Source of the DNA: a virus
Direction: 5' to 3' (one strand)
Length of the DNA: 38,866 nt
IMG/VR virus record: IMGVR_UViG_3300010354_000218
Location: 1-38,866 of that record
Positions 3,463-28,650 of the stretch are shown here, one piece after another. A model generated the notes under the pieces. That model worked only from the letters and a program-made list of their open reading frames with translations, had not been told where the DNA came from and searched no databases. Numbering within the stretch: position 1 is the first letter of the stretch; each line of letters begins with the position of its first letter. The position numbers were made by a program, and so were the translations under genes.

Positions 3463-6225
3463 CTATATTGTCCTGTATTTAGACTGTTGTTTGTAGGACT
3501 GTAATCTGTTAATTGAGGATCTATTATTAATAACTTTTCTATCAGTATTAATAGTTAACAGCTTAGGAGGATTTGCATTTCTAGTGTGAATTAAATTACA
3601 GCTACATCCATATCTATACGCCTCAAATACTGATACTGCTAATGCATCTGGTAAGTCCTTTGTTCCATATGGATGCACAATCTTGCCATTATCTTTAATT
3701 ACTAGAGAAGGCAAATCCGTCTTAATTAGAGCAGTCCAAGGACTATCTACGGGAAACAACACATCTCCCTGTTGTATTAATTGACGTAGTAGTGTGTAGT
3801 AAGTTAATTGACTGTCTCTAGAGAAGGACACTACATTCGTGTTAAGACCTTTAACATATAGATTCTGATTAAGAGATATAGAGTTCCAGCCATCAAACGT
3901 AATAGATACTACGTTCATGTATTGACTTATATACAGTATTACTTCTTCTGTATTTACGTAAGATACTTCTCTAAAACGGCCCTTTTCATCAATGCCTGGT
4001 GTCCAGCAAGCTATTCCTATTACCTCTATCTGACCCTTACTATTAATAGTAGCAATAGATAACGCCGTACTATCCTTCTTTGATCCCGTGTCTACATGTA
4101 TAAAGCAGGCCGTATTAACATTGTCAATTCTATCAATACTAATACCTCTGTAGCTTCTATTGTCTATGTCTATGCTGCACTCAGTAGCATCTATGCGGCT
4201 TTGAATAATACATAGCTTGTCTAGTAATGCTGCATCTAAGAACGAATTATCACTGCTGCTTCTTATATTCTCATACTCAAGTCTTGCTCTCTTAGGATTA
4301 CTGGCATAATCAGATACTATGTCTGGATTACTTCTAGTAATAGTAGGATTAACGTCAAAACAGCTTAATTCAAATACTAAAGAATAAGGATCTCCTTTTA
4401 CCTGTTCCTTTAAGGTAACCATAGGATCAGTAAATGACCAAGCAGAAGATACTACTATCTTCTTGCCTTCTCCCTTAAATCTATTAAGAGCACGACCTAC
4501 GTTCTCATAGATGTTAATGCCCGTATTAACTCCATCTGCTGTAGTCTCAAAACGCGCCATCTCATCTATAAATAACATCTTTAGGTTATAACCAACTAAT
4601 GCTTTAGAGTTAGTGTGCTTAGCAAATAGAGATACAAACTTATCAGGACACTTGATCTCATCACTAAGTACAATAATGCGCTTCTTCTTTATCATTGATT
4701 TAAAGAAGTCCGAGCTGTCTAAGAAGGATTTGATTGCTTTAAAGCTAGTCTCTAATACCTGTGCTTCTGTCTGAGCAATAGCAAATAAGGCAATGGGTGA
4801 ATAGGATAAAAGGCCGTAGTGCAGTCCTGGATCTGGTAAGGATATAAGCCTATAGAACTCATATAGAGAGATGATAGAAGAGAGCGTGCTTTTAGAGCTG
4901 TTATGACTAACTATGTAGTTACCTATAACGTGAGTGTCCTGCACCTCAAAGCCAATAATAGGCTGCAGTCCTAAGTCTTGTACATAACTGACTTCTTCCC
5001 AATCAATAGCACTGTCTACAATACTTAATAGCTGCGTATCATATGTGTTAGCTGCATACGCTCTAGCATTGCGCTTAGTAAGAGAACCGTTACTTCTTAG
5101 CCTATTCTTGCCTGACAGTTGTTTATTAGTCAGTTCAAGTACTGCTTGTCTCTGCTTTATTCTTTGCCATACAGGTTTAGGAATAGTATCTAGCTCTATA
5201 TGCTTTAGTCTATGTATTGCTTCATTCAATTTATCCTGCTTAGATAACATACCAATAGACGCAGCAAACTCTAGAATAGAATTTGCATCTTCAATAATTA
5301 GAGCCCACCTATTAGGTGTTCTTTTATTAGACGTATAGCGTACCTTAGATCTAATGCCAAACTTTACAAGTTCTTTTTGTATGTCTAGTACAAGTGTCTC
5401 ATGTAGAGATGTTATACCTATACTAGGTCTTAAGTATCTCTTATGAGACTTTTTCGTAGATACAAAACCATTACAAGAGAATAGACAGGATAAGAAGGCA
5501 GCTACTTCTTCTTTAGGCGCCTCCTTAATGCATGTAGGAATAGAACTAGCTATTGACTTAGCTAGCTGTTTAGCACGTTCAATACCAATAGACTTATTAC
5601 CAAATAGAGGTAAGTTGTTTAGTACTGCTACTCTATCTCCCTTAACCAAGTCTTTAACTGCTATCCATTCAGGCATAGCATTTCTCCATACAAGATATGG
5701 ATGATCACTTGTTACCTGCTCTTCTTTGCCATTCTTAAGCTTTAACTTGTGCGCAGACTGTAGTCCTTGATCCCACGTTCTAAAGTTACTAGTAGTAGAC
5801 AATACAAATGAAGCAGGATCAATAGTGTAGATACTAATAGCTTCTGTACTTCTATCATGTAGCTCCTTATAAGTAATAGTGCCCGCAGATGTTATTATCT
5901 CTGAAGTAGCAACAGGACAACCTCTTCCCGCTTCAAAGATTAAGTTGGTATACTTTCTGCCTTCTACCCAGTTAGTCTTATTCTGTTCCTTCCACAAGGC
6001 AAGTATAGCCTTATGCGTATCAGATAAGGGCTCATTGTATATTGCCTTTAATATTGCTTCTTGCGTAGGCCACAGCTTACTAGAAGGAGAGTCATTAAAG
6101 AGTATAGAATTAGCAAAGGTAACAACGTCTATATTGCTACCTTGAGGAGTACTAATTGATGCTTCAGTTAACTCTGCTAATAAGTCATTTAAGAACTCTT
6201 TTGTACCATACTGTTCTCTGCTCAT
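3463..6225 (-). CDS. terL: Terminase large subunit precursor containing an intein
   Basis: This is the ATP-driven DNA-packaging motor and headful/cos nuclease, 920 aa as translated and about 580 aa after intein removal. The N-extein ends EAGRG (98-102) and the C-extein begins SSKST (443-447), so splicing rebuilds a P-loop, GRGSSKST. Walker B is LFIDE (D554, E555), and a coupling motif VVSSAW follows (591-596). The C-terminal RNase H-like nuclease shows acidic residues D712 (HVDTGSKKDST), D778 (ITFDGW) and D860 (DLPDALAVS). The gene start overlaps the stop of its upstream neighbour by 4 nt (ATGA), which suggests translational coupling. Unusually, it sits at the distal end of the baseplate and tail genes instead of heading a packaging module, and no small terminase is recognised nearby. 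Without splicing the ATPase would be inactive, because the insertion splits the nucleotide-binding loop. Confidence 0.95.
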   Translation of the reverse strand: MSREQYGTKEFLNDLLAELTEASISTPQGSNIDVVTFANSILFNDSPSSKLWPTQEAILKAIYNEPLSDTHKAILALWKEQNKTNWVEGRKYTNLIFEAGRGCPVATSEIITSAGTITYKELHDRSTEAISIYTIDPASFVLSTTSNFRTWDQGLQSAHKLKLKNGKEEQVTSDHPYLVWRNAMPEWIAVKDLVKGDRVAVLNNLPLFGNKSIGIERAKQLAKSIASSIPTCIKEAPKEEVAAFLSCLFSCNGFVSTKKSHKRYLRPSIGITSLHETLVLDIQKELVKFGIRSKVRYTSNKRTPNRWALIIEDANSILEFAASIGMLSKQDKLNEAIHRLKHIELDTIPKPVWQRIKQRQAVLELTNKQLSGKNRLRSNGSLTKRNARAYAANTYDTQLLSIVDSAIDWEEVSYVQDLGLQPIIGFEVQDTHVIGNYIVSHNSSKSTLSSIISLYEFYRLISLPDPGLHYGLLSYSPIALFAIAQTEAQVLETSFKAIKSFLDSSDFFKSMIKKKRIIVLSDEIKCPDKFVSLFAKHTNSKALVGYNLKMLFIDEMARFETTADGVNTGINIYENVGRALNRFKGEGKKIVVSSAWSFTDPMVTLKEQVKGDPYSLVFELSCFDVNPTITRSNPDIVSDYASNPKRARLEYENIRSSSDNSFLDAALLDKLCIIQSRIDATECSIDIDNRSYRGISIDRIDNVNTACFIHVDTGSKKDSTALSIATINSKGQIEVIGIACWTPGIDEKGRFREVSYVNTEEVILYISQYMNVVSITFDGWNSISLNQNLYVKGLNTNVVSFSRDSQLTYYTLLRQLIQQGDVLFPVDSPWTALIKTDLPSLVIKDNGKIVHPYGTKDLPDALAVSVFEAYRYGCSCNLIHTRNANPPKLLTINTDRKVINNRSSINRLQSYKQQSKYRTI
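4900..5919 (-). mobile_element. Intein in terminase P-loop with degenerate LAGLIDADG endonuclease
   Basis: This in-frame insertion covers residues 103-442 of the terminase precursor (340 aa). The splicing motifs are present: Cys103 as first residue in block A (CPVATSEIITSAG), block B VTSDHPYLV with T172 and H175, block F FEVQDTHVIGNYIV, block G SHN with H441 and N442, and Ser443 as the +1 extein nucleophile. Splicing is therefore expected to be functional. Between blocks B and F are remnants of a LAGLIDADG (DOD) homing endonuclease. FLSCLFSCNGFV (244-255) corresponds to a block E of the type FLxGLFDADGxV, with the catalytic Asp replaced by N252. ILEFAASIGMLSKQDKL (317-333) resembles block H. 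No counterpart of the first LAGLIDADG motif is visible. The endonuclease is probably inactive, leaving a vertically inherited splicing element. Confidence 0.93.
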
Positions 6226-15326: not shown

Positions 15327-15860
15327 TTAGATAGATATTAACTGCTTAATAAGATGACGTTGATTGTCTTCTCTTACAATACGCGTGTGATTGATAGAGC
15401 TATACACATATCCTAGTTTTAGCATCTGTTCTGGTTTAAATAGTATGTTGTTATTAGGCGCTTCTGCTCCTAATACTATAGATGTAGTTCTAAAGTAGGC
15501 GCTTGTATAGTCCGTGTATCTAATGTCTCCTTCAATATATATGTGTGTTACGTCTGCATTAAGTACGTCTTCTTCATTGCTAGGATCTACGAGGTAATAG
15601 TTATTGCCATTTATTCTCTTATTATCACACGCAATACCTCCACAGTTAGTAACAGTAGCCAGCATAATAAGGCGGGGCCTCTTATACAGTATGATCTCAT
15701 CAGTAGCAGTAAAGTCTGTTACTGGCGGAGGCAGTGTTTCATTAGCCCAGGCACTATACTTGCCTACAGTAATAAAACACTTAGTCTTTAAGTAGAGCGC
15801 AATATCTCTTAGAAATATAGAGCGGCCTTTAGATAGTCTGTTAAAGTTAAATACTTGCAT
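15327..15860 (-). CDS. Putative baseplate wedge-like protein
   Basis: This 177-aa protein contains FITVGKYSAWANETLPPP (29-46), like the F-x-GK-x-xxW-xxxxxPP opening that recurs in T4-like baseplate (gp8-like) proteins. It is followed by strands and YIEGDIRYTDYTS near 107-119, resembling the wedge-protein pattern in which a loading site ends with a Tyr-rich stretch. No signal peptide or membrane helix is present. A good Shine-Dalgarno sequence (AAGGAG, 8 nt before ATG) lies inside the end of the upstream oxidoreductase gene, with a 14-nt overlap. The downstream gene is the large DUF4815-type protein. Baseplate membership is likely from context; the specific gp8-like label is tentative. Confidence 0.5.
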   Translation of the reverse strand: MQVFNFNRLSKGRSIFLRDIALYLKTKCFITVGKYSAWANETLPPPVTDFTATDEIILYKRPRLIMLATVTNCGGIACDNKRINGNNYYLVDPSNEEDVLNADVTHIYIEGDIRYTDYTSAYFRTTSIVLGAEAPNNNILFKPEQMLKLGYVYSSINHTRIVREDNQRHLIKQLISI

Positions 15861-16902
15861 TTATTATGCTCCTTACTATTGTTTGTGCTGCAGTACTGCT
15901 AGATATTATTGAATTAACTCTAGGCCCATCACTAAGAATAGCAAGAGGACCTGTCACATATATTTGACTATTTAATACTCTGCCGTCTCTATCTACTTCA
16001 TCTGGTCTTATGGATAGAGTATTAATAGGTACTACTCCAGTCCTGTTTACATACCTATAGTCATACTTAATCATTACTTCTTCTATTGGTACATCTCTGT
16101 ATATAGGAACACTACTTAATAGGTACTCGTTATTAGGAGTAATAGAAGGACCCCACGCCTTAACACTAGCTATATATCTCCTCTTTGCTTCTACAGAAGA
16201 GAGACAGTTACAGTAGACACCTAAAGCAGTGCGTGGGCCCCATATATTGTATGAAGGAGCAGGATACTGATGTATCTTAGGCAACTTAGTAATATAGATT
16301 CCTATGTCTACTCCTTTACTATGTAGATAATGAGCTATGTCAAATGCTCCTTGACCGCTACCTACTATCAATAGACGACCATAGTCCTTATTTAATATAT
16401 CTAGATTAGATACCGGTTTATATGGCAGCAGATAACTAGGAGTATCTCTCTCCTTTGTTCCTTGTGCTAGTACTATATTGTCAGCAGTAATAATGGCGCC
16501 CTGCTTTAAATGTACTTGACCATCTCTTATATCAAGCACATCATCATACAAGAATTGAACTCCTTCTTGCTGCAACTTTTGTTTTACCCAACACAGATAG
16601 CCAAACATCTGAGATCTCTTTATGCGGCGTGGATCTGTTTCTATAGCTAATTGATCCGTGGTAAACATGTCCTCTGTGTACAAATAATTGCTTAGAGAAT
16701 AATGTCTATTATTAGCACTATACGTTACTAGATCAAAGGAGACTGGGCTGCGCAATTCAAAGTCTGCTACGGTAGAAGTAGCAGACCATGTAGCGCCAGG
16801 TTTAGAGTCTACTATGTATATTTGATCAATATAGGGCAGCGCTTCAATAGCTACTGCTAATCCTCTAGGCCCTCCTCCAACAATTATAATGCTACGCAAC
16901 AT
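15847..16902 (-). CDS. FAD/NAD(P)-binding oxidoreductase in the tail operon
   Basis: This is a 351-aa two-dinucleotide-domain flavoprotein. The N-terminus has SIIIVGGGPRGLAVAIE (4-20), the GGGPRG FAD loop typical of the NAD_binding_9 (PF13454) type, with acidic D32 ending the second strand. A second Rossmann loop LLIVGSGQGAFDIAHYL (177-193) would bind NAD(P)H. Linking strands VLAQGTKE (144-151) and IYVTGPLA (314-321) fit the usual FAD domain return motifs. The length and motif order resemble flavin-dependent N-hydroxylases and related oxidoreductases, but the substrate cannot be read. It overlaps the tail-fibre-like gene by 11 nt upstream and a baseplate-like gene by 14 nt downstream, so it is co-translated with virion genes. 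No signal peptide or membrane anchor is present. Whether it is an enzyme, a fibre-modifying factor or a repurposed structural subunit is unknown. Confidence 0.9.
   Translation of the reverse strand: MLRSIIIVGGGPRGLAVAIEALPYIDQIYIVDSKPGATWSATSTVADFELRSPVSFDLVTYSANNRHYSLSNYLYTEDMFTTDQLAIETDPRRIKRSQMFGYLCWVKQKLQQEGVQFLYDDVLDIRDGQVHLKQGAIITADNIVLAQGTKERDTPSYLLPYKPVSNLDILNKDYGRLLIVGSGQGAFDIAHYLHSKGVDIGIYITKLPKIHQYPAPSYNIWGPRTALGVYCNCLSSVEAKRRYIASVKAWGPSITPNNEYLLSSVPIYRDVPIEEVMIKYDYRYVNRTGVVPINTLSIRPDEVDRDGRVLNSQIYVTGPLAILSDGPRVNSIISSSTAAQTIVRSIINASI
15869..15874 (-). promoter_or_regulatory. Shine-Dalgarno site for the 177-aa baseplate-like gene
   Basis: AAGGAG on the minus strand lies 8 nt before the ATG at 15860, inside the 3' end of the oxidoreductase gene. 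It is one of the few canonical sites in the window and fixes that start despite the gene overlap. Confidence 0.7.
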
Positions 16903-18508
16903 AAGGCTTAAACCATAAAGTAGTGCTGTTTAATGCTATGCCTGCTACTAATAATCCTGCAGTAGTAGTGATGCTTGTATTGCTGTTATTTATGTAGTAC
17001 AGAGAGCCTGGAACTAAACTAGTAAAGGCGTTTACTAGACTATTATTTGTATATAAATTACCATCAACATAAATAGCAAAGAAGTTAAGTAAAGGTTGAT
17101 TATGGCTGACTGTAATAGGAGCCCACGTATTTGCTTGCACTGGAATAAATACCTGTCCATTTACTGGTATTACTTGACCAAAGCCTTGTGCTGTTAAGAA
17201 TCTAGGTACAAGGTTATTAGGAGTGCCAGGTACATAGTCAGTTCCTCTATAGACTAAAGTAGACTCTTGATCAGGAACTTGTGAGTCAATCGTAATAGGT
17301 ATTCCATTTAATCTATTGGCATTCCAAAAGTTAGCGTCGTTTAAGATAGTTAAGGTTAGATTGTTAGTGTTATTTTGAATAGTTGCTACGTTAGTATTTG
17401 CTACGTTAATTACTTTTAGAGTAGTAACGTTATTAGCTTGAGAAGCTATAAGACTATTAGTAGTACCCGTAGAAGCAATTACTGTACTGCTATTGCCTCT
17501 AATAAGTACCTCAGTATCATTAGATTCAACCGTAATACCATCTAATCCTCTAAGTGTTCTAAGCTCGTACTTGTCCGTAACAGCATTAAAAGATTTGTAT
17601 ATTGGGCGGCCTGCTCCTATATTGCTAAGCTGATTAGTTGAAGTAGAAGCAATAGTAAGACTTGTTTCACTGTCTGTAATAGTTACGCCACTACCCGCAC
17701 TAATTCTCTTAATTTGACCTAAGCCATTATATAAAGTACTGCCTACATCATTAGCGTTAGTTAGTCCAACTCCATTGCCTGTACCTACCGCACTAATAGT
17801 TATCTCAGAAGCAGAGTCTGATATAAGAATGTTGGTACCCGCCTTAATACTCTTAAAACGTAAAGTAGAAGCTACATTGTTAACGTATATGCGCCCAGTA
17901 CCTACCCCTACGTTTTGACCAACTACAGTATTAATTCCGGCACTAGCATTAATTACTATTTGATTGCTGTTAGTCGTGTCTAAGGTAATATTGTTACCTG
18001 CTACTAGAGACTTAAAGCGTAAGTCTGCTCCTACCTTCTCCTTGTATATAGCAATACCCGTGCCTACACTAGAAGCAGTATTAGCTTCTCCAGGTGCAGT
18101 ATTAGATATGGTTATAGTGTTTACATCAGAGGAGATGCCAATATTAGTGCCTGCAACTATGGTCTTTAAGTTGTAAGTACCTCCACTGTAGTTTTTGTAT
18201 AGAGATGCACCAGACCCCACATTAGTAATAGTTAAAGGATTGGGTATTGTGCTGGATATTAACAGCGTTCTGTATACACCACTATCAGTAGTACTTACAT
18301 TAATATTATTACCTGCTACAACATTTATAGCGCCGTAAGTTCCGTCTAATACTCCATTTAAATAGAGCTTAGTACGAGGTGGTACATTTGCTAGAAGCGT
18401 AGTAAAAGAGACTGCCTTAGTCTCATTGTTGTTAGTGTCCTCTACAGGGAAATAAGTAGTGCCGCTTAATGAGGTAAGTATTGGTAGATCTGTTATGTTT
18501 GTCTGCAT
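16892..18508 (-). CDS. Repeat-containing tail fibre-like protein
   Basis: This 538-aa protein begins TDLPILTSLSGTTYFPV, as in fibre proteins that start with a short capping or attachment segment. Residues 97-337 are made of five imperfect repeats of about 40 residues with the pattern VGxGxxIYK...LRFKSLxAGxNIxI...xITIS, and a weaker copy lies near 50-85. This is a typical beta-prism or beta-helix shaft. The C-terminal part (about 395-538) lacks the repeats and contains FWNANRLNGIPI and an Asn/Thr-rich tip-like region. No catalytic motif was seen. It follows a 30-aa small ORF, has no Shine-Dalgarno sequence, and its end overlaps the flavoprotein gene. It probably forms a trimeric fibre attached to the baseplate; the host ligand is unknown. 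Confidence 0.7.
   Translation of the reverse strand: MQTNITDLPILTSLSGTTYFPVEDTNNNETKAVSFTTLLANVPPRTKLYLNGVLDGTYGAINVVAGNNINVSTTDSGVYRTLLISSTIPNPLTITNVGSGASLYKNYSGGTYNLKTIVAGTNIGISSDVNTITISNTAPGEANTASSVGTGIAIYKEKVGADLRFKSLVAGNNITLDTTNSNQIVINASAGINTVVGQNVGVGTGRIYVNNVASTLRFKSIKAGTNILISDSASEITISAVGTGNGVGLTNANDVGSTLYNGLGQIKRISAGSGVTITDSETSLTIASTSTNQLSNIGAGRPIYKSFNAVTDKYELRTLRGLDGITVESNDTEVLIRGNSSTVIASTGTTNSLIASQANNVTTLKVINVANTNVATIQNNTNNLTLTILNDANFWNANRLNGIPITIDSQVPDQESTLVYRGTDYVPGTPNNLVPRFLTAQGFGQVIPVNGQVFIPVQANTWAPITVSHNQPLLNFFAIYVDGNLYTNNSLVNAFTSLVPGSLYYINNSNTSITTTAGLLVAGIALNSTTLWFKPYVA
17498..18220 (-). repeat. Five imperfect ~40-residue coding repeats
   Basis: Repeat units start at residues of about 97, 148, 199, 245 and 296 of the fibre-like protein, spaced 46-51 residues apart. 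Each carries a VG-G-G turn, an IY or LY strand, an R/K-x-I/L strand, an AG-x-x-I/V turn and a closing ITI strand. The unit is conserved at the protein level and diverged in DNA, which points to an old expansion maintained by the fold. Confidence 0.8.
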
Positions 18509-18522
18509 ATAATATAAACCGT

Positions 18523-18615
18523 TTATTCAATAAGTAGAGAGTCTAATAAGTCTGTCTCCTGTGTAATAGGATCTCCTATCTCCTGAAGTAGTTCTTTCTT
18601 TACAATAAGGCACAT
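18523..18615 (-). CDS. Small overlapping ORF of 30 aa
   Basis: An ATG at 18615 lies inside the last codons of the 684-aa gene in the -1 frame and reads 30 codons to TAA (MCLIVKKELLQEIG... ending DSLLIE). It fills the only gap of more than 60 nt between genes in this area apart from the terminator region. The composition (Leu, Glu, Asp, Ile) is protein-like and amphipathic. No strong Shine-Dalgarno sequence precedes it; the short overlap would allow translational coupling. It may be a small protein, or, if ribosomes shift frame, a C-terminal extension of the 684-aa protein. There is no family evidence. Confidence 0.4.
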   Translation of the reverse strand: MCLIVKKELLQEIGDPITQETDLLDSLLIE

Positions 18616-20654
18616 TGCCCATCAGTTCTAAGTATTAACTGACCATTTACGTCTACCTGGCATCTATAGTCTTCTAATTTAACTATGTCAAAACAGATGT
18701 CAAAATCATTGTACAAAGGCATTTCTATGCCGCTAACTACATTTACAGGAATACCAACAACTTCAATAGTCTTTAGCTGCTGTTTAATGTAGTCATCTAT
18801 ATAGCCTAAGATCTCAATATCTACTGTGTTGCTGTAGGCTCCAGACCAGTAAGTAGATCTAATCTCTTGGCTGTCTACAGACAAAGCAGTAGTTAAAAGC
18901 TCCTTTCTGTTTAATAGATAGTTACTGTTAAATAACTGCGTATGTGTTGTCTTGGTACTAATAATGTCTTTCTGTCTTCTAGCGTGTACGTACAAGTCTA
19001 TAAGAGGCTTAGTAAATCCTCGTATTACAAGATCCTGTATAGGAGTCTCTTCACTTAGCCACGTATAGTTAACTGGAATAGTTGCTTTAAAGGTAGTGAA
19101 TACCTGTTGTTCATACATTTCTAAACATTCATAGAATGTATGCGTAAGCCTAGAAGAAGAGATAGGTATGCTCTGTACATCTACAATAAGACTATTAGTG
19201 CGCAGGTAACTAGGCAATACTACATTAATAAGCCTAAACAATAGAAGCTCCTGCGTACTTAGTTCTGTATCCGCATTTATATAATAAGGTGTTGTAAAGG
19301 ATAAGTAGTTAAATAGCTGACCTAAATACTTTTTAGTGTCAACATCTATGTTATATACGTACTTAGTAAATAGGTCCCCATATACAGTAGATTCTGTAGT
19401 TACTACAGGATTGTTAAGGCTTTCAAGAAATACACCGTCATGATAAAAACAGTACTTTATGTATTTGATTAGTGTTGTAGCAAGAGATAAGTACGTAACA
19501 TCATTAGTATTTACATATAGCTCCGTATACGCAATTAACTTAATAAAGCTGTTCTTTAGACTTCTAGTAGTAATAGCGTTAATCGTATCTATTACTGCGT
19601 TTACTTCTTGCTTAGCAAGTATAAGAGCTAAGAAGGATAACAACTGAATAGTTATGTCAGGTAATTCTTCTGTTGTGTAGTTAGTCGTGCCTAATACATT
19701 AGGAGAAGTTACTAAGTTGCTTATCCAGTTGCTCTTATCGTCCACAAGCTGCGTATATTCAATAGGAGCTGTAGCCGTCTTAACATAGCTATGACGTATG
19801 GTATTGTATGCCGCTATATCATTTATAGTTAGTAGCAGTATGTCTGCTAATCTATTTCTATCCTTATACAGTACTAACTGCTGCGGCAAAGATATATCTA
19901 CATCCGTAAGCAGAAGATAAATAATAGACCATAAAATATTCTCCGTATCATAAAGACGTACTGTCCAAGGAATGTTTGTCTCCCAGTTACTTCTTAGGTA
20001 TAAAGGGCGCTCAACAAATCTATACGTACTAACTATCTCTACTAAATTAAACTTAGTAATAGTAATAACTGCAGAAAAGCTTTCTGGTAAGTCAAGATCT
20101 ACAGTAACTGTATTGTCTATTAAACCCTGCTCTTTACTAATAAAGATCTCTTCTCCTGTCTCTATATGTATTGCGGAGACTTGATACAGATAAGAGTAGC
20201 CATAATCATCTGCATTAGCCTGTATAAAGTAGTAAGGTATATCATCTATTAGATAATACACATTACTGCTAATAGCAGTAGTCCATGCTCCGTATTTATC
20301 CATACACTCATTATTAATACAGTCATCAGTTATTACTGACGGTTGAGGATTTAGACGCAGATTATTAAGAGTAATAGTTAATACGTTATTACTTCTATTA
20401 AACGTAGGATATATAAGCTTCTGCGGCGTATTTACATACTCATACTTCTTATCATCATTTTCTATAATCTGATCGCAGATAGGAATACAGCTATCCTCTA
20501 TACAGTCGGTAGATAGACCAAGCTTAGTCTGTACAAGAGAGACTTTACTAGTAGTATTGCCAGACTTATACGCATTCCACCATATATTATTACCTCCCTG
20601 ATCTAGGTAAGTTAATACCTTGTTAAAAGCGTAGGAATTATCTTGACTTAACAC
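18600..20654 (-). CDS. Large hypothetical baseplate-region protein with N-terminal Cys clusters
   Basis: This 684-aa protein follows the baseplate J gene and starts with GTG, supported by a GAGGT site 8 nt upstream; the two genes overlap by 17 nt. Two compact cysteine groups occur early, CIEDSCIPIC (51-60) and CINNEC (112-117), and two more cysteines near the C-terminus (YRCQV and GQCALL). The rest is a mixture of strands and long Leu/Ile-rich helices with no signal peptide. In T4-like tails the gene after gp6 is gp7, a large wedge protein, and the position and size fit such a role, but no sequence signature confirms it. The cysteines could bind metal or form disulphides in the assembled virion; that is inference. 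Confidence 0.7.
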   Translation of the reverse strand: MLSQDNSYAFNKVLTYLDQGGNNIWWNAYKSGNTTSKVSLVQTKLGLSTDCIEDSCIPICDQIIENDDKKYEYVNTPQKLIYPTFNRSNNVLTITLNNLRLNPQPSVITDDCINNECMDKYGAWTTAISSNVYYLIDDIPYYFIQANADDYGYSYLYQVSAIHIETGEEIFISKEQGLIDNTVTVDLDLPESFSAVITITKFNLVEIVSTYRFVERPLYLRSNWETNIPWTVRLYDTENILWSIIYLLLTDVDISLPQQLVLYKDRNRLADILLLTINDIAAYNTIRHSYVKTATAPIEYTQLVDDKSNWISNLVTSPNVLGTTNYTTEELPDITIQLLSFLALILAKQEVNAVIDTINAITTRSLKNSFIKLIAYTELYVNTNDVTYLSLATTLIKYIKYCFYHDGVFLESLNNPVVTTESTVYGDLFTKYVYNIDVDTKKYLGQLFNYLSFTTPYYINADTELSTQELLLFRLINVVLPSYLRTNSLIVDVQSIPISSSRLTHTFYECLEMYEQQVFTTFKATIPVNYTWLSEETPIQDLVIRGFTKPLIDLYVHARRQKDIISTKTTHTQLFNSNYLLNRKELLTTALSVDSQEIRSTYWSGAYSNTVDIEILGYIDDYIKQQLKTIEVVGIPVNVVSGIEMPLYNDFDICFDIVKLEDYRCQVDVNGQLILRTDGQCALL

Positions 20655-21696
20655 TAACTACTACCTCGCTAGGAATTAATAGATACTCATTAATTATTGG
20701 AGTAATAGTAGTTGCAGGCTTATTAACGCTTACCGTATACCCCGTCTTACTAGTAACATAACTAGTAAGCTGTCCTACTACTACACTATCTCCTACAGTT
20801 AAATAAGAGAAGTATTCTTCAACTGCCGCTTTTATATTGTCTACAACAGTAGATACAGAGTCACTAGTGATTCCAGTTAAATACGCGGTTAGATCTAAAT
20901 CTACTGGTTGATACTGTAAAGACTTAACTATAAATAGTACTCCTACTGCTTTAATGTTATTAACAGTGCTAATTACTTTGTCTATGACTAACTGATTAGC
21001 AGTGTCTATGTATATAGTAGTGTATCCAGGAGCAGGCCTTCTTTCTACTATATGAATAGTATTTACATAACTCTGTAGTTGACTAATAATAGCGTCTTTA
21101 TTAACTAGGCCCTTATTAAATATAAACGTATTAAGTCTTGTTCTTAATGCATCGTCTGATTCAGATGAAGAGCCACCTATCAGATTTCCTACTAGCTGTT
21201 TTGTATTGTCTCTATAACTCCCAACAACAGCAGAAACATCACTGTTAATAAAATAGAGAGGAGTACCTGCTACTAAGTTAGCGTTGCTAGACTGAGTTAT
21301 AGATGTAACGGGCACTAATGCTTCTCTATCCGCACTTACTACTACTTCCTTTGTAGTCTCTAAAGTAATAGTGCCAGTTACGTTTTGTAGTTGAGCTCCT
21401 ACTAATAACTTAGTAGTATTAGTTGCTTTAGCTAATACAGTACCAAAAGAGCTAGTACCTGGTCTTCTTGATAGTCCGTAGGTATTAGCAAGCACATCTA
21501 GATCATTGCCCTGACTACTAGATACTAGACCCGCATTAACAATACCGGTAATCTCCTGTTCTTGTGCGTAACAGGTAGCCGCCATTCCTCTAATAAGAGT
21601 ATAGAGGACTCCATAACTAGAGGCTGCCTTTTCAAGGCTAGTATTGTTAAATTGCTGTCTTATATCTTCAACTATTTGCTCAAATGTTCTAGACAT
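20638..21696 (-). CDS. Baseplate J / gp6-like wedge protein
   Basis: This 352-aa protein of the Baseplate_J family (PF04865) forms the inner wedge ring of contractile baseplates. Signature segments are SQGNDLDVLANTYGLSRRPG (61-80), followed by FGTVLAKA, and SESDDALRTRLNTF (near 175-190), the conserved Glu/Arg-rich loop. The C-terminal region shows paired alpha-beta elements (YTTIYIDT, GVLFIVKSL) and IKAAVEEYFSYLTVGDSVVV, as in J proteins. An AGGAG site precedes the ATG, and the start overlaps the gp25-like gene by 8 nt. The order gp25-like then J-like matches many phages and contractile injection systems, which strengthens both calls. Confidence 0.9.
   Translation of the reverse strand: MSRTFEQIVEDIRQQFNNTSLEKAASSYGVLYTLIRGMAATCYAQEQEITGIVNAGLVSSSQGNDLDVLANTYGLSRRPGTSSFGTVLAKATNTTKLLVGAQLQNVTGTITLETTKEVVVSADREALVPVTSITQSSNANLVAGTPLYFINSDVSAVVGSYRDNTKQLVGNLIGGSSSESDDALRTRLNTFIFNKGLVNKDAIISQLQSYVNTIHIVERRPAPGYTTIYIDTANQLVIDKVISTVNNIKAVGVLFIVKSLQYQPVDLDLTAYLTGITSDSVSTVVDNIKAAVEEYFSYLTVGDSVVVGQLTSYVTSKTGYTVSVNKPATTITPIINEYLLIPSEVVVSVKSR
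20663..20667 (-). promoter_or_regulatory. Shine-Dalgarno site setting a GTG start
   Basis: GAGGT on the minus strand lies 8 nt before the GTG at 20654, inside the end of the baseplate J gene. It supports GTG as the real start of the 684-aa gene, for which there is no better-placed ATG. Confidence 0.65.
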
Positions 21697-27085: not shown

Positions 27086-28234
27086 TTATCTAAATCTCAA
27101 ACACTGTTCAGGATCAATAAAGTCTCCATTAATCTTTATTTCAAAGTGCAAATGAGGGCCCGTACTATATCCCGTATTGCCCATATCTCCAATACGCTGA
27201 CCTACTACTACCTGTTGGCCTACTGAGCAGAATATAGCTTCTAGATGATTATAGGTAGTAAGAATACCTTCTGGACTAGTTATTACCACTCTATTACCAT
27301 AGCCTCCATCATTCCAACCCGCCTCATTGACTACTCCATTACTACTAGCAAATATGGGAGTTCCTACATTATTAGCTATGTCTACACCATTATGCATACG
27401 CTCATTTCTCCAACCAAAGCCACTAGTAAACGTTCCTTGAGTAGGCAGTCTTAAACTAGAACACATAGCAAATCCCTGTGCCAGCATTGCAAACTTGGCA
27501 CCTTTAGCTACTAAGGTACTGTTAGCTACTCCTGCTCCATTAGTACTACTTCCTGTCACTGGTCTAACTATGTTAGATATTTTGCAACCTGGATTAGTTA
27601 TCTGATAATTAGCTCTATACAGATCAACCGCACTAATAGCGGCACAGGTAATATCTGCCTGTAATGCTAGATCTAAATCCAATGCAGTAGCAGGAGCAGT
27701 ACGTAATCCTTGACCTAGTCCACTAAGAGCACTAAGAGAGACGGCAGGTCCTTCAGGTAAAGGAACGCCCTTTAGTGAGTCAACTAACTTACAAAAGCTT
27801 TCTGCGGTATACTTACTGCCCTGATTCTTATATCTAAACCCAGAAGAACTATTAGGCATTGCTGCCCACTCCAGAGAATTACTATCTAACGTTGCTAGAC
27901 AGTTACCTGCTATAACGTCATTTAGTGTACCTCTAAGAGTATCCATTCTATATAAAGCAGCAATATCCTGATCTCTAGGATTGCGTATATCTAAAGGACC
28001 TAAGCCTTGCTGTATCTCTTTCCATGTACTTGGCATAAACTGATAACGACCAAACGCAGCACTAGTTCCTCCTTGAAAAATAGTATTAGGATGAGCAGCG
28101 CTTGTAGGCACATGCACGTAGCCCCCATTAGCCGTATAGTAAGTGGGAGCCTCTATCTGACTAATTGCATTTAAATAGGCAACAACATTAGTATTACTTA
28201 ATAACTGTAAATAGTAATTCTTGTCTTTAGCCAT
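27086..28234 (-). CDS. Two-domain virion lysin: GH104-like muramidase plus M23 peptidase
   Basis: This 382-aa protein has two wall-degrading domains. Residues about 8-155 resemble lambda-type/GH104 lysozyme-fold lytic enzymes: probable catalytic E28 in AISQIEAPTYY, GTSAAFGRYQFMPSTW (56-71), QDIAALYRM and LEWAAMPNSSSGF. A linker of about 100 residues follows. Residues about 264-382 are an M23 (LytM) zinc endopeptidase with FGWRNERMHNGVDIA (H281, D285), NHL (H330) and GPHLHFEIK (H361, H363), all key residues present. There is no signal peptide, so delivery is probably as part of the virion or tail. It sits between an amidase gene and two helical unknowns, directly after the hub and spike genes. 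Such a protein would cleave both glycan and peptide bonds during DNA entry; use at lysis cannot be excluded. Confidence 0.93.
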   Translation of the reverse strand: MAKDKNYYLQLLSNTNVVAYLNAISQIEAPTYYTANGGYVHVPTSAAHPNTIFQGGTSAAFGRYQFMPSTWKEIQQGLGPLDIRNPRDQDIAALYRMDTLRGTLNDVIAGNCLATLDSNSLEWAAMPNSSSGFRYKNQGSKYTAESFCKLVDSLKGVPLPEGPAVSLSALSGLGQGLRTAPATALDLDLALQADITCAAISAVDLYRANYQITNPGCKISNIVRPVTGSSTNGAGVANSTLVAKGAKFAMLAQGFAMCSSLRLPTQGTFTSGFGWRNERMHNGVDIANNVGTPIFASSNGVVNEAGWNDGGYGNRVVITSPEGILTTYNHLEAIFCSVGQQVVVGQRIGDMGNTGYSTGPHLHFEIKINGDFIDPEQCLRFR

Positions 28235-28236
28235 AA

Positions 28237-28650
28237 CTACTCTAATCCTGTATATATAGTTTTGTTGGGTAGGAACTTGTTATATGCTCTAAATAACTCA
28301 ACTCTGTCTAGCTTCTTTAAATCACTAGAACTAGATAGATCTGCGTGCGTATAAACCTTATCCAGGGCTATATCTAATTGAGATAACAGATATGCAAGCG
28401 TCATGTATTGAGCAGAATTAAGGGATCCATCAATAGACTCTAGGCATATTTGATAGGAGCTGGCATCTACATTAGATATACCTTTTAATTCGCAGTTACC
28501 ACAGGCTACCGCAGCTCTATTAGCAGGAACTAAGTATGTAAGAGCGCCATTGGTACTAATGAATGCGTGATAGCTATAGCTAGCAGTCTGTATAGTACTG
28601 AGAAATACGTCAGAGCTTTCTTCTGTCTGATGTAATACAACAATAAACAT
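28237..28650 (-). CDS. N-acetylmuramoyl-L-alanine amidase (Amidase_2 type)
   Basis: This is a compact 137-aa amidase of the T7 lysozyme/PGRP fold, cleaving the bond between MurNAc and the stem peptide. VVLHQTEES (4-12) supplies zinc ligand H7. SYSYHAFISTNGALTYLVPA (24-43) is the family's core. H102 in THAD and the K-x-D motif K113-L-D115 would supply the second and third ligands, in the place of H122 and KxC130 of T7 lysozyme. The expected 'AwHxG' loop is replaced by AVACGNC (47-53), two cysteines close together. It starts immediately at the stop of the OB-fold gene, with AGGAG 13 nt upstream. Its place between spike and lysin genes suggests a tail-associated enzyme, though an endolysin role is possible. 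Confidence 0.88.
   Translation of the reverse strand: MFIVVLHQTEESSDVFLSTIQTASYSYHAFISTNGALTYLVPANRAAVACGNCELKGISNVDASSYQICLESIDGSLNSAQYMTLAYLLSQLDIALDKVYTHADLSSSSDLKKLDRVELFRAYNKFLPNKTIYTGLE

Follow-up and report, generated by a model that had tools for sequence, protein, structure and literature searches.

What does a flavoenzyme gene do in the tail operon of a virus? The question is raised by one gene (OXR) of the window, the whole 38,866-base virus record that was analysed. We know of no earlier redox enzyme integral to contractile-tail biogenesis, and to our knowledge contractile tails have been described as protein machines that are assembled without redox enzymes.

Plus frame 1 of positions 15847-16902 is packed with stop codons, and the true ORF lies on the minus strand (Table 1). 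A sequence-only reading had described a complete flavin oxidoreductase gene here, and this was confirmed, with Pfam and PHROG scores beyond chance; both of the dinucleotide-binding loops that it had called intact were found. The same reading had OXR overlapping virion genes on both sides. On the downstream side this stands, since the BW3TFN baseplate ORF is overlapped by 14 bp; the upstream overlap is likewise present (11 bp), but the identity of that neighbour as a tail fibre is less well backed. Such an identity is weakly suggested by tblastn, in which 50 residues match a tail fibre protein of a Pseudomonas phage (54%, E 1e-5), and the 538-aa product has no Pfam family, no PHROG family and no solved relative. 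Recent insertion was rejected on composition, the GC content of positions 16001-17000 being 0.385 in a window range of 0.329-0.399.

Table 1. Coordinates of OXR, its motifs and neighbouring genes in the window
Feature	Position	Strand	Basis or remark
OXR, 351 aa, ATG start	16902..15847	-	ORF, Pfam, PHROG 29209, predicted fold; homologue of Ma-LMM01 gp106
FAD dinucleotide-binding loop GGGPRG, residues 9-14	16861..16878	-	G9, G11, P12 and R13 in 26/26, G14 in 24/26
NAD(P)H-binding loop GSGQGA, residues 181-186	16345..16362	-	G181, G183 and Q184 in 26/26
RSPVSFDL, residues 51-58	16729..16752	-	aligned to N-hydroxylase substrate-side loop
YPAPSYNIW, residues 213-221	16240..16266	-	motif conserved among phage proteins
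KAWGPSITP, residues 248-256	16135..16161	-	motif conserved among phage proteins
SDGPRVNSIIS, residues 324-334	15901..15933	-	conserved C-terminal motif
BW3TFN baseplate protein, 177 aa	15327..15860	-	"Baseplate wedge 3 tail fiber network component", E 3.8e-14
DUF4815 protein, 1342 aa	11294..15322	-	relative of solved chain 9euf_0 (ORF65), E 1e-26
Fibre-like protein, 538 aa, upstream of OXR	16892..18508	-	weak basis
684-aa protein between baseplate J and OXR	18600..20654	-	relatives at this place in most loci long enough to include it
Baseplate J-like wedge protein	20638..21696	-	PF04865 1.7e-13, phrog_6

Judged from the 16 ORFs that were scanned, the window reads as the tail operon of a contractile-tailed phage, and its products include a sheath protein, an Amidase_2 protein, an M23 peptidase, baseplate J, BW3TFN, the DUF4815 protein and a terminase. 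BW3TFN is related to the solved baseplate chains 9tic ORF64, 9fko, 9euf and 6hhk Gp105 (E 5e-5 to 4e-3), and the predicted model of the 684-aa protein is poor (pLDDT 52). Two cell-wall hydrolases occur within the operon, an M23 peptidase ORF being followed closely by an Amidase_2 ORF (27086-28650, minus strand). The ORF of the large terminase subunit (920 aa; 3463-6225, minus strand) is interrupted by what resembles an intein, including a LAGLIDADG domain (PF14528, 1.4e-9), and the intein splicing family PF14890 matches across residues 118-442, under its cut-off. In a listing of closed ORFs, positions 1-2660 contain no minus-strand ORF of at least 60 aa and, on the plus strand, just two small ones (74 and 63 aa), while the rest of the window is densely coded.

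The family of OXR was examined by profile and by predicted structure. The protein scored above cut-off for PF13434 (Lys_Orn_oxgnase; 42.9 bits, cut-off 21.3, E 4.5e-11), PF07992 (Pyr_redox_2; 35.2 bits, cut-off 26.1, E 1.2e-8) and PF13454 (NAD_binding_9; 25.0 bits, cut-off 21.8, E 2e-5), in agreement with the families that the sequence-only reading had put forward. All 14 members of one set of relatives (A2) matched PF13434 at E ≤0.01, and OXR itself matched PHROG 29209, of unknown function, at E 9e-39 over residues 6-351. The predicted model (mean pLDDT 86.6, pTM 0.87) bears out the fold of a flavin/NAD(P)H enzyme and displays the two FAD and NADPH domains of the N-hydroxylating flavin monooxygenase superfamily. 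Its match to KtzI (4tlx) has a VIA Z of 28.4 and an rmsd of 3.0 over 327 of 351 residues, followed by SidA (27.8), PvdA (27.7) and the diamine hydroxylases (26.2-26.7, with putrescine N-hydroxylase at 26.7); the N-hydroxylase matches span 324-327 of the 351 residues. Flavin-containing monooxygenases scored 19-24 and thioredoxin reductase 19.2. Foldseek similarly ranked N-hydroxylases at the top (KtzI, E 5e-15, TM 0.72). A thioredoxin-reductase or lipoamide-dehydrogenase identity was rejected, the matches lying far under the family cut-offs and the Z scores below those of N-hydroxylases. Flavin-containing monooxygenases bear the fingerprint FxGxxxHxxx(Y/F), which was found in none of 26 OXR proteins. 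On the strength of a confident model, OXR is thus predicted to have the fold of the flavin N-hydroxylating monooxygenases.

To assess conservation, 33 ORFs were reduced to 26 distinct proteins, each 300 aa or longer, by dropping five exact copies and two truncated sequences. Thirty-nine aligned positions are invariant across the 26, seven of them in the two cofactor loops. Every protein carries the superfamily loops GxGP (FAD) and GxGQ (NADPH). The sequence-only reading had named the loss of cofactor-contacting residues in relatives as evidence for a stray insertion, and these loop residues are not lost. The invariant residues further include W39, R51, S52, P53, F56, D57 and L58, as well as Y213, P214, P216, W221, W250, P252, I254, T255, D325, G326, P327 and R328. 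The profile alignment to cellular N-hydroxylases is unreliable past residue 205, where the default alignment ends and beyond which a forced one is unconvincing at the motifs, and the YPAP, KxWGPSITP and DGPR motifs are therefore not assigned equivalent residues in those enzymes.

A tblastn search of 50,697 phage records with OXR returned 10 with a match across at least 80% of the query, and a second query returned the same 10. Nine are Microcystis-phage records (Ma-LMM01 and its kin, 31-32%), among which two genomes occur twice, and the tenth is the Microcoleus phage My-WqHQDG (29.5%). The nine Microcystis-phage homologues are labelled "putative lysine/ornithine N-monooxygenase" (four), "lysine/ornithine N-monooxygenase" (one) and "hypothetical protein" (four). 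The sole full-length strong match in a viral library was MaMV-DC gp106 (E 9e-23; next 4e-7). IMG/VR scans yielded 28 OXR loci altogether, and a scan of one genome per species (84,980 species) yielded one relative, on a contig of the cyanobacterial assembly Elainella saxicola. These scans used two short peptide patterns for OXR, so that divergent relatives will have been missed, as will those with or without OXR in the DUF4815 scan described below, which used one.

Three matches at E 1e-10 were obtained in 386 cyanobacterial genomes, with up to five candidates scored per genome, a design that is weak for distant copies. The only full-length match (Elainella) sits on a contig that also carries this tail operon, and OXR is therefore not an evident host gene; a host origin was rejected, since no close homologue was found among the host genes of these 386 genomes. 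The two partial matches (G097 and G237) fall in long ORFs that we read as dihydrolipoamide-dehydrogenase-like. A tree separated the 26 phage-type proteins from five cyanobacterial N-hydroxylases with a support of 100/100. As relatives occur in Microcystis and Microcoleus phages and in the Elainella assembly, the known hosts are cyanobacteria, and we infer that the window and the IMG/VR loci derive from cyanophages. The DUF4815 gene of the Elainella-assembly contig is split into two overlapping ORFs (L027, 11682-16072), as it is in L067, an IMG/VR contig possibly identical in sequence. Four records labelled Acinetobacter phage MD-2021a (CAKLQF020000018, CAKLQH020000016, CAKLQH020000011 and CAKLQF020000009) encode lysine N-hydroxylases of the ordinary iucD type, unlike the tail-linked OXR; they are 44-46% identical to a cyanobacterial enzyme, and iucA is named alongside in two.

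The position of OXR is fixed. In all 32 loci that hold both OXR and BW3TFN (the window, three phage records and 28 other loci, near-copies included, five of which carry exact copies of another's OXR protein; L002 ends inside OXR and was left out), OXR lies directly 5' of the BW3TFN gene, which is followed by the DUF4815 gene. The OXR proteins found there are as little as 27% alike, which argues that the gene is no stray insert, and the view that it is not a casual cargo gene was upheld. When the starts of the longest ORFs are taken, the OXR and BW3TFN frames overlap in 29 of the 32 loci; two others have a gap of no more than 10 nt, and L023 stands apart with 63 nt. On the other side, the distance to the nearest upstream ORF ranges from -82 to 153 nt in 31 of the 32 loci (L025 starts inside OXR), and the window and L006-L010 were the only loci in which the 11-bp overlap with the fibre-like gene was seen. 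It is the baseplate gene downstream, rather than the fibre gene, that stays constant beside OXR.

Not all related tail modules carry the gene. A DUF4815 profile scan of IMG/VR gave 35 loci and, with SPO1 (L034), 36 were examined, of which 22 possess OXR (21 of them already among the OXR loci counted) and 14 do not. Twelve of these 14 show an SPO1-type arrangement (SPO1 and L068-L078), and another, L062, begins inside the DUF4815 gene and is uninformative. The last, L060 (contig IMGVR_UViG_3300014775_001868, 3967-9915), passes straight from baseplate J to BW3TFN and lacks both OXR and the 684-aa middle gene. It also encodes proteins related to T788 and P382 of the window, and its DUF4815 protein is nearest, among the records listed, to those of Microcystis phages (27%); no further copy of OXR was detected on its 67-kb contig, which is possibly a fragment. 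Absence from the same place in all relatives, the other sign of stray insertion named beforehand, was not borne out, as OXR keeps its position in each of the 32 loci with both genes. The DUF4815 protein of the window has matches in 634 records of the phage collection and, at the sensitivity of tblastn, only the 10 records already described have a full-length OXR match. Since the SPO1-type relatives and L060 lack it, OXR belongs to one branch of the tail module and is not universal even nearby.

Gene position alone is no proof of a tail function. Our preferred reading, held tentatively and a little short of even confidence, is that OXR is a working FAD/NAD(P)H enzyme of monooxygenase fold, belonging to a phage-only clade, dedicated to tail biogenesis and oxidising a tail protein. 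OXR would bind FAD and NAD(P)H and form a flavin-hydroperoxide; it would associate with BW3TFN, or with the adjoining DUF4815 or fibre-like protein, and would oxidise a side chain of that protein, as N-hydroxylases do free amines. The oxidation would take place during assembly, before completion of the baseplate. Homology, the predicted fold, the conserved cofactor loops, the fixed position and purifying selection are shown and favour this reading, as do the high conservation of OXR among the module proteins, the scarcity of matches in the 386 cyanobacterial genomes and the invariant phenylalanine of the substrate-side loop; cofactor binding, activity, substrate and timing are inferred. The idea that OXR acts on a baseplate or fibre protein, or else is carried in the baseplate together with its FAD, is plausible without being probable. 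Several observations count against oxidation of a tail protein. OXR distances follow those of the tail genes loosely (Spearman 0.36-0.41, versus 0.45-0.78 for the tail genes among themselves), and hence no tight partner is shown. L060 is a tail-module relative without OXR. Three N-hydroxylases (NbtG, Z 23.5; 5cqf, 23.3; 9nns, 22.3) fall inside the range of the flavin-containing monooxygenases. At the C-terminal ATG motif position, G289 is present in all 26 proteins and T288 in 19, and the clade of the window has RTG, RVG or KIG against the usual (A)TG elsewhere. We know of no N-hydroxylase that acts on a protein. In addition, only five genes of Ma-LMM01 were classed as late in PMC5780444.

If OXR were instead a small-molecule enzyme, e.g., a diamine or amino-acid N-hydroxylase that alters host polyamines or iron supply, its placement among tail genes would be incidental. 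We consider this rather unlikely, although the best solved-structure profile matches are the diamine hydroxylases DfoA (1.4e-13) and DesB (1.7e-13) and a putrescine hydroxylase (3.5e-12), ahead of SidA (1.2e-9). The substrate-side loop bears on the kind of substrate. F56 of OXR is aligned where the lysine/ornithine enzyme 9nns has the lysine of FLKDL, and this position is phenylalanine in all 26 OXR proteins (phage loop FDL). In SidA and PvdA the substrate carboxylate is bound by the lysine of FLKDL, and OXR lacks this mark of the lysine/ornithine N-hydroxylases proper (SidA, PvdA and IucD), so that the label "lysine/ornithine N-monooxygenase" is doubtful. Provided that the role of the lysine is as described, the phage loop speaks against a protein built for free lysine or ornithine. 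The diamine hydroxylases (FMADL, FMSDL and FIADL) and all five cyanobacterial N-hydroxylases (FLADL) also lack the lysine, however, and the substrate may therefore be a small amine. Set against such a substrate are the fixed tail-operon position across deep divergence, the conserved phage motifs, which were not seen in the cellular enzymes, and the Pfam scan of the 15 other ORFs of the window, itself a fragment, in which no gene appeared whose protein might make use of an OXR product.

Unlikely, in our judgement, is a virion flavoprotein, in which OXR with FAD would be a subunit of the baseplate or fibre network, perhaps redox- or light-responsive at adsorption or contraction. OXR adjoins the BW3TFN and DUF4815 genes, whose products are related to solved baseplate chains, in each of the 32 loci, and it is under purifying selection with a dN/dS like that of the neighbouring tail genes: among six loci of the Microcystis-phage group, dN/dS (NG86) is 0.176 for OXR (15 pairs), 0.185 for BW3TFN (15), 0.183 for DUF4815 (15) and 0.135 for T788 (10). 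Yet the SPO1-type modules and L060 manage without the gene, and OXR is more conserved than four tail proteins and has kept its NAD(P)H loop, which would be superfluous in a purely structural part. The median pairwise identity is 35% for OXR, compared with 28% for DUF4815, 28% for baseplate J, 22% for BW3TFN and 21% for T788 (19 loci; 18 for baseplate J and T788); OXR is the most conserved of the five module proteins compared, as an enzyme might be. An enzyme that oxidises a host surface glycan or protein on entry is highly improbable, for although OXR adjoins fibre-like and baseplate genes, the NAD(P)H that it needs is found inside the cell, and the monooxygenase fold fills nearly the whole chain with no separate anchoring domain.

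The retention of a flavoenzyme in a cyanophage baseplate operon suggests either an oxidative step in tail maturation, as in the preferred reading, or a redox-active tail part. The standing annotation, which invites a siderophore or auxiliary-metabolism interpretation, is put in doubt, and the question is directly testable in cultured Microcystis phages. In the literature covered, "monooxygenase" does not appear in the main texts of the Microcystis-phage papers PMC9927357, PMC5780444, PMC4103541 and PMC12542629, nor "gp106" in the main text of PMC5780444, nor "flavin" or "oxidoreductase" in the text consulted of the A-1(L) tail paper PMC10966104. Among the papers searched on Ma-LMM01 and on ornithine N-monooxygenase in phage, none was found that discusses the gene.

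Among known systems, the SPO1 module gp14.2-15.1-16.1-16.2 shares the order of a J-like gene, a middle gene, BW3TFN and DUF4815, but there, unlike in the window, the middle gene and BW3TFN are not separated by a flavoenzyme gene. With KtzI, SidA, PvdA, DfoA, DesB and putrescine N-hydroxylase, OXR shares the predicted two-domain fold, the FAD loop and the NADPH loop. It is about 75-150 residues shorter than the solved N-hydroxylase chains (425-501 aa), has phenylalanine in the substrate-side loop where these have lysine or alanine/serine and, in contrast to them, possesses motifs of its own (YPxPxYxxW, KxWxPSITP and DGPRxxS) and a location in a tail operon. The closest described counterparts are Ma-LMM01 gp106 and MaMV-DC ORF106R, full-length homologues of 31-35% identity that occupy the same place before BW3TFN-like and DUF4815 genes, which in Ma-LMM01 are gp107 and gp108. 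They are 337 aa in length against 351 aa for OXR, and they keep the ATG motif that is lost in the window copy. Both had already been annotated as "putative lysine/ornithine N-monooxygenase", so that the gene family is not new and the statement that no described system fits was too strong. What seems to be unreported is the constant association of this family with the baseplate module throughout a deep lineage, together with its changed substrate-side loop.
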